Shown here in pieces: positions 1 to 50,000 of a stretch of 50,000 bases of DNA. The stretch is from Gammaproteobacteria bacterium (lineage in GTDB: Bacteria > Pseudomonadota > Gammaproteobacteria > Steroidobacterales > GCA-2729495). The notes under the pieces are model-generated. The model saw nothing but the letters and a program-made list of their open reading frames with translations. It did no database searches and was not told the DNA's origin. The translations under genes and the position numbers were made by a program. How positions within the stretch are numbered: position 1 is the stretch's first letter; every line of letters starts with the position of its first letter. Location: positions 1 through 50,000 of the forward strand of contig VGVH01000007.1 in assembly GCA_016874095.1 (NCBI GenBank), in the 5' to 3' direction.

Positions 1-127
1 CACCGCCGAACTTCTCTCCCATCACCTTCGTCAGCGCCGACGTCAACGTCGTCTTCCCGTGGTCAACGTGACCTATCGTCCCGACATTTACATGCGGCTT
101 CTTGCGTTCGAATTTTGCTTTGGACAT
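1..127 (-). CDS. tuf: Elongation factor Tu, first tuf copy (partial, 5' end only)
   Basis: These are the first 42 codons of EF-Tu, the GTPase that delivers aminoacyl-tRNA to the ribosome. The rest lies beyond the left edge of the window. All 127 bases are identical to positions 16657-16783, the start of the complete tuf copy, and the identity stops exactly at the ATG. The P-loop region (GHVDHGKTT) is included. A GAGGAG ribosome binding site lies about 9 bases upstream of the ATG. It is the last gene seen of the rpsL-rpsG-fusA-tuf (str) operon, 65 bases after fusA. Confidence 0.97.
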
Positions 128-192: not shown

Positions 193-2295
193 TCAATGGC
201 GCCTTGCGCCGGCATCGACCGCCACTGGACTGTAGTGAGACAACTCCATCGCGAAAGTCCCGCGCCCCTGCGTCATCGACCGCAGGAGCGTGGCATAGCC
301 GAACATCGCCGCCAGAGGCACTTCGGCACGAAGGATGAGGCCCTCTGCGGCAGCTTCCATGCCCTGCAGAGCGCCGTGGCGGCGCGCAAGATCGCCGTGC
401 ACGTCACCGATAAACTGCTCGGGTGACGTGACCATCACCCGCATCACCGGCTCGAGCAGCACGGCGCCGGCCACGGCGACGGCTTCCCTGACGCCATTGC
501 TGGCGGCAATGCGCAACGCGGTTTCCGCAATTTCGCCGGCTGACTCGCTGGCATCGAGCACGGCCACCACGATGTCCGTCAGCGGATAGCCATTCGCACC
601 GCCCCTGGCGAGCTGCTCGCGGATTCCCAGCTCGATGGCGGGAAACGGGCAAGCGGTGCGCGCTCCGTCGGGGCGCGCATCGCGCACGATGGCGCCGGTA
701 CCGCGTGGCGCGACTTCGATTCGAAGCATGACGCGCGCGGACTGGACCGTCCCCGCTGACGGGCGCTCAAAGCGACCTTCGTGCGTCACCGGGGCCGCGA
801 CCGTCTCCCGGAAGGCAACCTGCGGGCGCCCCATGTTCACCGCGATGCCATGCTCGCGCCGTATGCGGTCGACGACGATTTCCAGATGCAGTTCACCCAT
901 GCCGGCGATGACGGGCTGGGCCGATTCATCGTCACCGACGACACGCAAGGACGGGTCTTCGCGGGCGAGGCTATTCAGGACATCGGCAAGGCGCGCCTGG
1001 TCGACCGCCGAGCGCGGTTCGAGCGCAACGGAAATCACGGGCTCCGGAAACTCCATGCGCTCGAGCGCAATCACGGCGCGCTCATCGGAAAGCGTGTCGC
1101 CGGTCGTGACGTCTTCAAGGCCGCTCGCTGCGGCGATGTCACCTGCGCGGACTTCGTCGATCAAATCGCTCTGATTGGCATGCATCTGCAGCAGTCGGGC
1201 GACCCGCTCGTGCCGGTTCCGGCGGGGGTTGAACACCCGGTCTCCCGTCCGCAACACACCGGAATAGACGCGGATGAACGTGAGCTTGCCTTCGGTCACG
1301 TCGGTCGCGATCTTGAAGGCCAGTGCTGCAAAAGGCTCGTCGTCGCTCGCCGCGCGCTCGCCCGGGCCGTTCGCCGCCAGCTGGCCGCGCACCGGTGGTC
1401 GATCCGCCGGGGAAGGCAGGTAGTCGACGACCGCATCCAGCATCGCCTGCACGCCCTTGTTGCGGAACGCCGAACCGCAGGTGACAGGCACCAGTTCGCC
1501 AGCCAGAACCCGGCGGCGCAGGCCGCGGCGGATTTCAGCCGCCGGAAGGTCGCCCTGCTCCAGGTAAAGCGCCGTGAGCGCCTCATCGCCTTCGGCTGCG
1601 GCGGCTACGAGAAATTCGCGGGCCTCGCGGACCTGCGCGCGCAGCTCGGCAGGAACGTCGCGGACGTGTACATCTACGCCGAGGCTGGCGTCGTCCCAGA
1701 AGTAGGCGCGCTGCTCGACCAGATCGACAACGCCACGGAAGGACTCCTCCGCACCGATCGGCAGCTGCAGCGGCAATGCATTGGCTCCGAGCCGGTCACG
1801 GATCTGCTGCACCACGCGGGCGAAATGCGCACCCGGCCGGTCCATCTTGTTGACGAAGCAGATGCGCGGTACGCCGTAGCGATCGGCCTGACGCCATACC
1901 GTCTCGGACTGCGGCTCGACGCCGCGGACGGCGCAAAAGACCGTCAACGCGCCATCAAGCACCCGCAGGCTGCGCTCGACTTCCATGGTGAAGTCGACGT
2001 GGCCGGGCGTGTCGATGATGTTGATGCGATGCTCCGGGCGCTGGCGCGTCATGCCGCGCCAGAAACAGGTCGTGGCCGCGGCGGTGATCGTTATGCCGCG
2101 TTCCTGCTCCTGCTCCATCCAGTCCATGACAGCCGCGCCGTCGTGGACTTCACCCATGCGGCGGGAGACCCCGGTGTAGAAAAGTATCCGCTCGGTCGTA
2201 GTCGTCTTGCCCGCATCGATATGGGCCGAGATCCCGATGTTCCGGTAGCGCTCGATTGGAGTGGTCCGGGGCACGGTATCGGTCCAGGCAGGCAT
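193..2295 (-). CDS. fusA: Elongation factor G, str-operon copy with divergent domain IV
   Basis: EF-G is the GTPase that drives tRNA-mRNA translocation and, with RRF, ribosome recycling. The 700-residue length is normal. The GTPase domain is intact: P-loop AHIDAGKT (residues 24-31), switch I ERGITIT (65-71), DTPGH (95-99) and NKMD (149-152). Domain III has AGMGELHLE (464-472), and domain V has GDVHGDL and [16 protein letters not shown]. Domain IV (about 491-613) is unusual. The conserved SGGRGQYG-type loop is replaced by PSAGTVQSA (512-520). The SYHDVDSSE tip is replaced by SESAGEIAE (583-591), which puts Ser585 where E. coli has His583. The end, MELSHYSPV, resembles second-copy EF-Gs such as Vibrio FusA2. 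It follows rpsG by 20 bases. Identity as an EF-G is certain. Whether it is the main translocase is doubtful. Confidence 0.95.
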
Positions 2296-2315: not shown

Positions 2316-2795
2316 TTACCAGCGATAGTGGGCGAACGCCTTGTTGGCGTCGGCCATGCGGTGCATGTCTTCGCGCTTCTTGACCGCGTTGCCGCGATTG
2401 TCGGCAGCGTCGAGCAGTTCATGGGCGAGTCGCTGCGCCATCGACTTCTCGCCGCGACCCTTGGCCGCCTCGATCACCCAGCGCATGGCCAGTGTCTGGC
2501 GGCGCTGCGGTCGCACTTCCACCGGAACCTGGTACGTGGCACCGCCGACCCGGCGGGATTTCACCTCGACCATCGGCTTCACGTTGTCCAGCGCGCGCTG
2601 GAGGATTTCGAGCGCCTGGGGTTCCGGCTGGTTGGTGCGCTCTGCGATGCGCTCGATGGCACCGTAGACAATGCTCTCTGCAGCCGACTTCTTGCCCTGG
2701 CGCATCACCATGTTGATGAACTTCGCGAGCATATCGCTCCCGTGCTTGGGATCCGGGAGTATCTCGCGATGCGGTGCCTGGGCTCGTCTGGACAT
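2316..2795 (-). CDS. rpsG: 30S ribosomal protein S7
   Basis: S7 nucleates assembly of the 3' domain of 16S rRNA and contacts the E-site tRNA. The 159-residue protein is of normal length. It carries the hallmark stretches [19 protein letters not shown] and the C-terminal [17 protein letters not shown] followed by AHYRW. It lies between rpsL (34 bases upstream) and fusA (20 bases downstream) in the str operon. In E. coli S7 feeds back on this operon by binding the rpsL-rpsG spacer. The spacer here is short and no such structure was identified. Confidence 0.98.
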
Positions 2796-2829: not shown

Positions 2830-3204
2830 TTACTTCTTGGGACGCTTGGCGCCGTACTTCGAACGGCTCTTCTTGCGGTCACTGACGCCTGAGCAGTCGA
2901 GCGTGCCGCGGACCGTGTGGTAGCGCACGCCGGGAAGGTCCTTGACGCGGCCGCCACGGATCAGCACGACAGAGTGCTCCTGCAGGTTGTGACCCTCGCC
3001 GCCGATGTAGCTCGTCACTTCGTAGCCGTTGGTGAGACGCACGCGCGCCACCTTGCGCAGCGCCGAGTTCGGCTTCTTCGGCGTGGTCGTGTAGACACGC
3101 GTACAGACACCGCGCTTCTGCGGGCTCTTCTGTAGCGCCGGCACGTTCGTCTTCCAGACGTTCGGCTGGCGTGACTTGCGGACGAGCTGATTGACCGTGG
3201 CCAT
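2830..3204 (-). CDS. rpsL: 30S ribosomal protein S12
   Basis: S12 sits at the decoding centre and affects accuracy of tRNA selection. The 124-residue protein starts at [10 protein letters not shown]. The frame stays open 15 codons further upstream, but the family start and length favour the ATG at 3204. The two streptomycin-relevant lysines are wild type, in [13 protein letters not shown] and [12 protein letters not shown], so no streptomycin-resistance substitution is seen there. It is the first gene of the str operon, with a sigma70-type promoter at 3371-3399 and a leader of about 160 bases. Confidence 0.98.
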
Positions 3205-3331
3205 GCGGCGTAATCCCGGTAACTCAAAAATTGGTCGGCTGATAAACATCAGCCCGCATGCGGCGCATCCGTCACGGATGCTTCACACATACGGGCTGTC
3301 CATTGCGGGCCGAGGGGCCCCGCGTCGCTGA

Positions 3332-15290: not shown

Positions 15291-15366
15291 TGGCAGGCCA
15301 GGAGGGTCTCGAACCCCCAACCTTCGGTTTTGGAGACCGACGCTCTGCCAATTGAGCTACTGGCCT
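15291..15366 (-). tRNA. tRNA-Trp (CCA anticodon)
   Basis: A 76-base tRNA with encoded CCA. The acceptor stem AGGCCAG pairs with CTGGCCT, the D arm is AGCTCAATTGGCAGAGC, the anticodon loop is CTCCAAA (anticodon CCA) and the T arm is GGGGGTTCGAGACCCTC. It sits between tuf and secE, as in many gammaproteobacteria, and is probably processed from the tuf-secE-nusG transcript. Confidence 0.97.
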
Positions 15367-15530
15367 GTGCTGCTAAACGCCTTCATGGACCGATATCGGA
15401 GATCCAGCAAACACGAAGGGCTTCGCCTCTAGTACCGAGCAGTTCTCTCTGCCTCTGCCTGTCTCAAGCCCGGCGCGCTCAGCTTGCTGGGCGCCCGGGT
15501 TTGTTTGTTGAGTCGGATCGCGGTGGTGTT

Positions 15531-15553
15531 GTCGCGGCTTGCGCCGCTCCTGC
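15531..15553 (-). repeat. REP-like palindromic repeat, copy A
   Basis: On the minus strand this reads GCAGGAGCGGCGCAAGCCGC followed by GAC, a short hairpin (GCGGC/GCCGC) preceded by a GTAG-like head. It matches the GTAG-type REP architecture known from Pseudomonas and Xanthomonas relatives. It lies 22 bases from copy B in the tuf-tRNA-Trp spacer. The rest of that spacer (15367-15530) has no gene; it holds an imperfect GC-rich hairpin around 15470-15512 of unclear function. Confidence 0.65.
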
Positions 15554-15574
15554 CTGCCGCTCCTGTCGTTGCCA

Positions 15575-15592
15575 TCGCGGCTTGCGCCGCTC

Positions 15593-15596
<4 letters not shown>
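15575..15596 (-). repeat. REP-like palindromic repeat, copy B, overlapping the tuf stop codon
   Basis: On the minus strand the element reads GTAGGAGCGGCGCAAGCCGC followed by GA, in the same orientation as copies A and C. Its GTAG head overlaps the last bases of tuf. The final G of the last codon plus the TAG stop (15595-15593) are the first four bases of the repeat. Confidence 0.7.
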
Positions 15597-16783
<1,187 letters not shown>

Positions 16784-16867
16784 CGGCTTCTCCAGGCGTC
16801 TGGTGCTTGCAATCCGGCATCGATCGCGACACCGGCATCTTCACTGTGAATCGAAAACTCTCTGTCT

Positions 16868-16943
<76 letters not shown>

Positions 16944-17037
16944 GGTGTCAGAGGGCCAGTGACTGTGTCTCCGTACTGAAAACCCTTGAGATCGTCCTGC
17001 TCGTCGCACTAGCGATGCGGATTCCGTCTCCTCGATC

Positions 17038-17111
<74 letters not shown>

Positions 17112-17288
17112 CGAGCTTGACTGTCGCCCCTTGCACCGGAGCGCCCGCAAAAATTTCATCGTGCATGCGCCACGTATCACTGATCTCTTCGATCAGGACA
17201 CTCACGCGACAGACTTCAATCTGATTCAGGTCCCTTCGGCCGACGCGTTAAACGGCGTCATCGAACCCGCCCCGCCCACCAGCCCGAC

Positions 17289-17374
<86 letters not shown>

Positions 17375-17471
17375 GCGGACATAAGCGCACTATTTTCCGG
17401 TTGCACCAATCGGGTGTCAACAGAAAACCAGCGGAAAAGCAGGCGGATGGGCGTTGCGGACACACCGAAAC

Positions 17472-17545
17472 TGGTGCCCCCACTCGGAATCGAACCAAGC
17501 TCTGTGGTTTACAAAACCACTGCATCACCACAATGCTTTGGGGGC
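17472..17545 (-). tRNA. tRNA-Thr (TGT anticodon) with atypical D arm
   Basis: A 74-base tRNA with encoded CCA. The acceptor stem is GCCCCCA/TGGGGGC, the anticodon stem-loop GTGGT-TTTGTAA-ACCAC gives TGT (Thr), and the T arm is CTTGG-TTCGATT-CCGAG. The D arm is GCAT-TGTGGTG-ATGC, with a 7-base loop, and the two linker bases after the acceptor stem are A-A, so position 8 is A rather than the near-universal U. It is the first gene of the tRNA-tuf operon, matching E. coli thrU by position. Confidence 0.88.
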
Positions 17546-47352: not shown

Positions 47353-47471
47353 TGCCTGGCAGTGACCTACTCTCACATGGGGAAACCCCACACTACCATC
47401 GGCGCTGGGCGTTTTCACTTCTGAGTTCGAAATGGGATCAGGTGGTTCCCGCCCGCTATAGCCGCCAGGCA
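47353..47471 (-). rRNA. rrf: 5S ribosomal RNA
   Basis: A gene of about 119 bases on the minus strand. Its terminal helix is TGCCTGGCGGC at the 5' end with CTGCCAGGCA at the 3' end. The conserved loops are CCCATTTCGAACTCAGAAGTG and GCCGATGGTAGTGTGGGGT. It follows 23S by a spacer of about 145 bases and precedes the operon terminator. The ends are placed by the terminal helix and could be off by 1-2 bases. Confidence 0.96.
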
Positions 47472-47495
47472 ATTCGGTTGGCCTGCGGGGAATGA

Positions 47496-47518
47496 GTCGC
47501 GGCTTGCGCCGCTCCTAC
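47496..47518 (-). repeat. REP-like palindromic repeat, copy C, in the 23S-5S spacer
   Basis: The 23 bases match REP-like copy B over its full length and have the same orientation: the minus strand reads GTAGGAGCGGCGCAAGCCGC followed by GAC. It is followed at 47520-47560 by degenerate pieces of the same CCGCTCCTGC motif. It lies inside the transcribed 23S-5S spacer and would appear in the precursor rRNA. The rest of the spacer shows no gene. Confidence 0.7.
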
Positions 47519-47617
47519 ATCCGCTCCTGCATCCGCATCTGCGCTGCTCCTGCAGGCCGTAATCTGGTTGGTTTCGACGAAACAACTGCTTCGTTCAAGC
47601 TGTTTGGGTGTTATATG

Positions 47618-50000
<2,383 letters not shown>

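Follow-up and report, generated by a model that had tools for sequence, protein, structure and literature searches.

The locus considered here raises the question of what the elongation factor EF-G of a str operon does once the tip of its domain IV has been lost. The window, by which we mean the whole stretch of 50,000 nucleotides that was analysed, starts inside tuf at a contig end and continues with fusA, rpsG, rpsL, rpoC, and rpoB, so that rpsG to rpoB lie upstream of fusA; its relevant features are as follows.

193 to 2295, minus strand: fusA of the str operon, encoding an EF-G of 700 aa with the domain IV tip lost (open reading frame; TIGR00484 907.5 bits against a cut-off of 659.4)
469 to 825, minus strand: domain IV, Pfam EFG_IV, residues 491 to 609
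736 to 762, minus strand: loop 1, PSAGTVQSA replacing QSGGRGQYG, residues 512 to 520 (from alignment)
649 to 669, minus strand: third conserved tip segment, residues 543 to 549 (from alignment)
523 to 549, minus strand: loop 2, SESAGEIAE replacing SYHDVDSSE, residues 583 to 591 (from alignment)
2316 to 2795, minus strand: rpsG (S7), the upstream str-operon neighbour
2830 to 3249, minus strand: rpsL (S12), open reading frame as listed, with the usual start near 3204
1 to 127, minus strand: tuf, 5' portion only, truncated at the contig end, its 42 residues identical to the second tuf
15593 to 16783, minus strand: second tuf copy, a member of the codon-usage reference set

The preliminary description had placed fusA in a canonical str operon between rpsG and tuf, and so it lies, with rpsL and rpsG before it and the partial tuf after it at the contig end. 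Its true start may be the GTG at 2272 to 2274, where the reading of its relatives begins. Elsewhere in the window, five tRNA genes surround the second tuf (15294 to 17545), and 5S and 23S rRNA genes occupy the minus strand at 47354 to 50000. All EF-G domains are found by Pfam, and the protein scores above the TIGR00484 equivalog cut-off. We confirm that the GTPase, domain III, and domain V are intact: the GTPase motifs are complete, the RGITI G2 motif and the switch-II His are present, and so are domains II, III, and V. By pseudogene criteria this is no pseudogene, its frame being open and its dN/dS 0.23–0.28 in three pairs.

The two altered loops lie at the residues first given for them, and Ser585 does align with E. 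coli His583 (E. coli residue numbers leave the initiator Met uncounted). In the alignment, loop 1 has Q507 replaced by P, G509 by A, and G512 by V, with G510 kept, and loop 2 has H583 replaced by S; the translocation tip residues Q507, G509, G510, and H583 thus read P, A, G, and S. A third tip segment, overlooked in the preliminary description, is also changed (G541 to D, P545 to T, and E547 to C, with G542 kept). Displacement of the motifs was considered and is ruled out by the alignment, in which the loops are in register with SGGRGQYG and YHDVDSSE of the relatives' str EF-Gs. Pfam EFG_IV gives the protein 58 bits, as compared to 138 for the other EF-G of the genome. A C-terminus like that of second-copy EF-Gs had been proposed as well, but the tail is divergent and short (by about 3 residues), and our tree places the protein among str EF-Gs. 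An AlphaFold2 model, which is not main evidence here, is weak overall (pLDDT 60, pTM 0.43), with domain IV at 72–91 per ten-residue block and the tail, where recycling-only EF-Gs (EF-G2mt, spdEFG2) have a shortened helix, drawn as a 5-residue helix at low confidence; Foldseek with this model puts EF-Gs at the top of its list.

A canonical-tip EF-G elsewhere in the genome had been offered as one possibility, and genome search retrieves one at G000:C13:17267-19393 (G000 is the window genome). An EFG_IV search of the genome finds two genes, the window gene at 62.5 bits and C13:17555-17911 at 142 bits. We name the kinds of extra EF-G discussed here B1, B2, and B3. The B1 of the window genome (P0002, 709 aa) has both loops canonical (KKQSGGSGQYA and KYHDVDSSA) and is 43% identical to the operon EF-G. 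Its gene adjoins dcd; dcd is otherwise near B1 in two of 80 named loci (G003 and G005), some flanks being short, and its absence beside B1 elsewhere suits horizontal spread without proving it. Switch I is 5 residues longer in both B1 and B2, through an insertion that reads TKDGK in P0002 and TKDLK in B2. We considered and rejected the identification of B1 as spdEFG1: unlike the 3-residue KDG of spdEFG1, the B1 insertion in the same region has 5 residues (with KDG among them in P0002), and the spdEFG1 trait of occurring without EFG I is absent, a str EFG I being found in all 37 B1 genomes where it is readable. The mtEFG1 match has 3 extra residues. B2, found in the congeners G004 and G007, is 59–60% identical to B1; B3 is 45–48% identical to the window protein and is accompanied by canonical str loops where these are readable. 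As a separate observation, two congeners carry, tail to tail and about 120 bases apart, B2 and a distant EF-G with 34% identity to the window protein (L036, G007:C1:2221023-2225225; and G002:C32:26009-30205).

Which of the two genes is the newcomer is addressed by phylogeny. Among 95 EF-Gs placed on a tree, the window protein and those of G003 and G005 group beside the family's other decayed copies, inside the str/EFG-I clade, with the canonical copies of G004, G007, and G008 as sister; branches are long, and the exact position of the most decayed rows is uncertain. In a 62-row tree made without domain IV, the window protein again falls among its family's str EF-Gs. This position within its own family's str clade indicates that the resident gene was changed in place, the native operon EF-G losing its tip and B1 being the copy of foreign lineage. 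The earlier suggestion that a specialised EF-G had taken over the operon slot does not survive this placement, although specialisation itself is kept as the best reading. The window protein would thus be an EFG I by descent that, judged by its sequence, is no canonical bifunctional EF-G. In the midpoint-rooted tree, B1, B2, and a plasmid-borne EF-G from Azospirillum make up a clade of their own with support 99, on the alphaproteobacterial side, and B1, B2, and B3 lie on one side of this tree. The plasmid-borne gene (L257, 5001-7142, NZ_CP029358.1, Azospirillum thermophilum) encodes a relative of B1 and B2 that is 62.5% identical to B1; it is a spare EF-G on an extra replicon of 406 kb, with an IS transposase about 4 kb off.

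Within the family, for which 40 genomes were compared, B1 occurs in 11 at 84–100% identity, namely three from the window's genus (G000, G003, and G005) and all eight genomes of another genus. The str EF-G is readable in seven of these 11 and is decayed in six (G000, G003, G005, G016, G035, and G060); the seventh, G023, is mildly changed, with loop 1 intact, loop 2 reading HHEVDSSE, and the third segment altered. Identity between G000 and G003 or G005 is 92–93% for rpsG and 96% for tuf but falls to 63% for the str EF-G. In switch I, RGISI replaces RGITI in the decayed str EF-Gs of G005 and G003 (L009 and L010), and B1 keeps RGITI. Canonical loops in close relatives at the same locus had been named beforehand as grounds for doubting the loss. 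The congeners G004, G007, and G008 do have canonical str loops; however, the search detected no B1 in these three, and other species show the loss again, so the objection applies only in part.

Beyond the family, the best 80 of 369 B1 loci in a scan of named genomes (77–88% identity) come from Dyella, Rhodanobacter, Frateuria, Dokdonella, and many beta- and gammaproteobacterial metagenome-assembled genomes (MAGs), some of the names being doubtful; L120, L131, L136, L142, L178, and L190, for example, bear labels (Rheinheimera tuosuensis, Bordetella parapertussis, Chitinophaga pinensis) that misfit their tree neighbours or each other. Eight of the 80 are family genomes; 42 of the other 72 were searched for str EF-Gs, and loop 1 was readable in 30, with 24 canonical loops and six broken ones (G431, G438, G440, G464, G439, and G461, the last by one residue only, SGSKGQYG). 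Loop 1 is thus broken in 12 of 37 readable B1 carriers, as compared to none of the 34 str EF-Gs in whose genomes B1 was not detected (E. coli and 33 genomes, some incomplete, from the same family or order), and tip loss recurs so far only in B1 carriers. All 71 str EF-G genes adjoin rpsG, and the 12 broken ones have rpsG and tuf as their two neighbours. Fisher's test gives p = 4e-5 for the association of B1 with a broken loop 1 (28 of the 37 carriers, 11 of them broken, nine omitted including G461), a value that ignores kinship; a kinship-aware comparison has only two to three independent pairs, too few for a test. On the tree without domain IV, loop-1 loss needs at least five changes, of which three are forced by well-supported branches, counted among B1 carriers. 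B1 is not sufficient for the loss, with loop 1 intact in 25 of the 37.

The reading frame is open along the entire EF-G in all of the 12 broken-tip copies except G431, where the part upstream of an unread base gives no EF-G sequence and the first 50-odd residues are unsure. The str EF-G of a B1-carrying betaproteobacterial MAG (L224, G429) has intact loops but sits on a long branch and shows no match to NKMDR in G4; it is perhaps at an early stage of decay. In 276 genomes of the class searched with canonical domain IV, no decayed full-length str EF-G other than the window's was found; the best match was at or below 1.2e-73 in 240, weaker in 15 (including G000), and absent in 21, and mild decay could hide among the 240 strong matches, whose loops were not read individually. 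On re-search of the 14 other weak and 20 of the 21 matchless genomes, eight have a str-type EF-G (at least 56% identity) running off a contig end and the remainder have EF-Gs of other kinds or no EF-G; of the cut copies, two extend as far as loop 1 (L265 and L266), and their glycines are intact. Outright loss of the str EF-G in those B1 genomes where none was found was also considered and is not supported: rpsG is missing from the same assemblies in G028, G032, and 11 of 12 further genomes, the twelfth, G442, holding an EF-G fragment (G061 and G062 were outside the rpsG check).

This distribution bears on whether the pairing is an artefact of assembly, sequencing, or binning, with B1 from a contaminant. 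The window genome is in 75 contigs and its str contig starts inside tuf, as such an artefact might have it; against this, the genome is listed as 100% complete with 0.73% contamination, the same pairing is seen in G003, G005, G016, G023, G035, G060, and other B1 genomes, and B1 is present in genomes whose names assign them to strains of Dyella, Rhodanobacter, and Frateuria. An assembly error behind the tip loss is itself unlikely because the frame is open and because the tip is lost in other ways at this locus in the congeners G003 and G005. We therefore regard an artefact as extremely improbable.

To see how far the loss is confined to the tip, we compared ten decayed copies, omitting G023 and G439 as intermediates, with 50 canonical str EF-Gs (the 34 without detected B1 and 16 from intact-tip B1 carriers). 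Tip-invariant cells are lost in 96 of 190 cases (51%) and those in the rest of domain IV in 27 of 220 (12%), with a tip boundary that is partly post hoc, the third segment having been added after the alignment was seen. Losses in the other domains run at 6–15% (72/1292 in G, 41/410 in II, 67/440 in III, and 28/330 in V). When the copies are considered one at a time, seven of the ten show a clear tip excess; that of the window protein is borderline (13/19 in the tip, 8/22 in the body, p 0.04), and those of G035 (p 0.25) and G440 (p 0.08) fall short of significance. Every decayed copy, but no canonical one, lacks one or both of the two loop-1 glycines; Q507 follows the same pattern, and H583 is lost in five of the ten and kept in five. 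With H583 kept in half and partial states in G023 and G439, the tip change is graded, and the replacement tips differ between lineages without a common sequence. Compared with G007, the window protein is 75% identical in G, 70% in II, 58% in III, 42% in IV, and 64% in V, as against 87, 85, 93, 93, and 88% for the canonical G008; six B1 pairs keep 81–99% identity in domain IV.

Pairwise dN/dS (Nei–Gojobori, with dS partly saturated) is 0.120 (G464/G440), 0.122 (G035/G060), and 0.143 (G003/G005) for decayed pairs, with 0.05–0.09 in the G domain and 0.17–0.25 in domain IV of the same pairs. The decayed proteins are therefore maintained under purifying selection, with domain IV the most relaxed. 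Canonical str pairs give 0.054 and 0.084, and B1 pairs 0.025, 0.050, 0.121, and 0.124; with two of the four B1 pairs at 0.12, the overall value is no clear divider of decayed from B1 proteins. The window protein against G003, G005, and G007 gives 0.23–0.28 overall and 0.47–0.57 in domain IV; selection in this lineage is relaxed along the whole protein, which suits slow decay as well. With the window genome's ribosomal-protein and tuf genes as reference, the codon adaptation index (CAI) is 0.565 for the operon EF-G, 0.75 for B1, 0.686 for tuf, 0.716 for rpoB, and 0.73 for rpoC, an order opposite to that expected if the operon copy were the main translocase. B1 also exceeds the str EF-G in 13 of 13 genomes compared, which is indicative only, the window-genome reference having been used throughout. 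Because B1 is the higher in two carriers with intact str tips as well (G441 and G429), the codon-usage shift may be earlier than the tip loss.

These measurements can be read as redundant decay, in which B1 does both jobs of EF-G and the operon copy is a dispensable, drifting relic that lost its tip first, the tip having had the strongest special constraint to lose. The long branches and raised dN/dS across the whole window protein, the low codon adaptation, and the lineage-to-lineage variety of the replacement tips all agree with this. A relic would not be expected, however, to show G-domain dN/dS like that of two canonical pairs (0.06 and 0.09), to keep its GTPase motifs (RGISI in G003 and G005) and most body residues of domain IV, or to stay open throughout in all but one of the broken-tip copies, and we consider redundant decay unlikely.

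We favour instead a division of labour in which B1 translocates and the operon EF-G, released from translocation, most likely keeps RRF-dependent ribosome splitting; we give this reading a probability of about 0.57. An extra EF-G of another lineage, B1, with its canonical tip and switch-I insertion, would take over translocation; the freed resident would then lose the residues that hold the codon–anticodon helix (Q507, a loop-1 glycine, and H583), keep its GTPase, domains II, III, and V, and most of the domain IV body, and persist as the RRF partner that splits post-termination, and perhaps also hibernating, ribosomes. One splitting event would be needed for each protein, not for each codon, in keeping with the lower codon adaptation of the operon EF-G. 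RRF has one gene in the window genome and one in 18 of 19 other genomes searched, G431 being the miss.

Several published results point this way. Q507 and H583 are reported to contact the moving tRNA–mRNA complex, and replacements in the tip to slow translocation and promote −1 frameshifting (PMC9307594). The recycling-only EF-G2mt has its second loop-1 Gly changed to Asp and B. burgdorferi EF-G2 its first changed to Ala (PMC8203779); the same positions are changed here, to Asp in G003 and G438 and, like the Borrelia factor, from the first Gly to Ala in the window protein. S. aureus EF-G H572K, the equivalent of H583K, is described as splitting 100S ribosomes with RRF at the wild-type level, a reaction requiring GTP hydrolysis, while its translocation is compromised (PMC7196661). 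From these data and the RRF gene, we infer that B1 translocates and that the operon EF-G splits ribosomes with RRF. That the operon EF-G has lost translocation is highly probable; that it retained recycling is a closer call, with the odds somewhat in favour, and B1 could be a recycler too. EF-G2mt uses loop 1 against bridge B2a (PMC8203779), and the lack of a common sequence in the new tips counts against the recycling reading.

The preliminary description had also offered that the lineage translocates with an unusual tip. The operon EF-G might do so beside B1, given that it still scores above the equivalog cut-off and that Q507 mutants are reported to translocate still (PMC9307594). In the window protein, though, both reported tRNA–mRNA contacts (PMC9307594) are gone together with a loop-1 glycine, and a canonical-tip EF-G is present in the genome, which makes this very unlikely. 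A different retained job, such as splitting or rescue of stalled or hibernating ribosomes or another ribosome-dependent GTPase role in place of routine recycling, is improbable to a lesser degree: RRF and EF-G split 100S ribosomes also without translocation function (PMC7196661), and G000, G035, and G060 have a shortened C-terminal tail, G016 and G023 an altered one, but nothing at the locus points to a stress role and the gene still sits behind rpsG in the str operon.

The division of labour that we favour has known counterparts. Like the present pair, EF-G1mt/EF-G2mt and spdEFG1/spdEFG2 (Borrelia EF-G1/EF-G2) comprise one EF-G with a canonical loop 1 and one with a substituted glycine, and they are reported to divide translocation from RRF-dependent recycling (PMC8203779, PMC3150367, PMC3832671). 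Unlike in the spirochaete pair, the tipless partner here is the native str-operon EFG I; it nests among its own family's str EF-Gs, in a tree that holds no spdEFG2 sequence. In P. aeruginosa, the str copy of EF-G1A/EF-G1B is assigned to recycling and the non-str copy to translocation, the two being 84% identical (PMC3832671); here the roles are inferred, the identity is 43%, and the str copy is visibly tipless. The gcEFG2 group, described as a second EF-G of unknown function found mostly in gammaproteobacteria (PMC4342817), is like B3 in lying outside the str operon, and B3 may belong to it; unlike the B1-carrying window genome, B3 carriers with a readable str EF-G keep canonical loops.

EFG II, which includes the EF-G2 of T. 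thermophilus and that of M. smegmatis, is likewise a divergent second EF-G. EFG II is, however, characterized as lacking RGITI (PMC3150367), a motif that the window protein has. The same source has Margus et al. assuming that str-operon fusA is stable throughout evolution (PMC3150367), and these genomes look like exceptions. We found no report of str EF-G tip loss in the open-access literature searched. Division of labour between EF-Gs is itself known; what is new is the parties (a native str EFG I made tipless and a B1 partner), the recurrence, and the living intermediates.

More tentatively, and at slightly less than even odds, the arrival of B1 repeatedly turns a bifunctional str EF-G into a dedicated ribosome-splitting factor by removal of its tip. 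If so, the split of translocase from recyclase seen in mitochondria and spirochaetes would have been re-created several times in proteobacteria, starting from another pair of EF-Gs, and its intermediates would survive in G023 and G439. EF-G combines two essential jobs in one body, and assigning residues to jobs is hard; here the tip has apparently been removed several times with the rest kept, and canonical, partial, and extreme states occur in related genomes, so that the split is directly testable. These proteins would then be natural separation-of-function EF-Gs, and they warn that the fusA of a str operon need not be the translocase.
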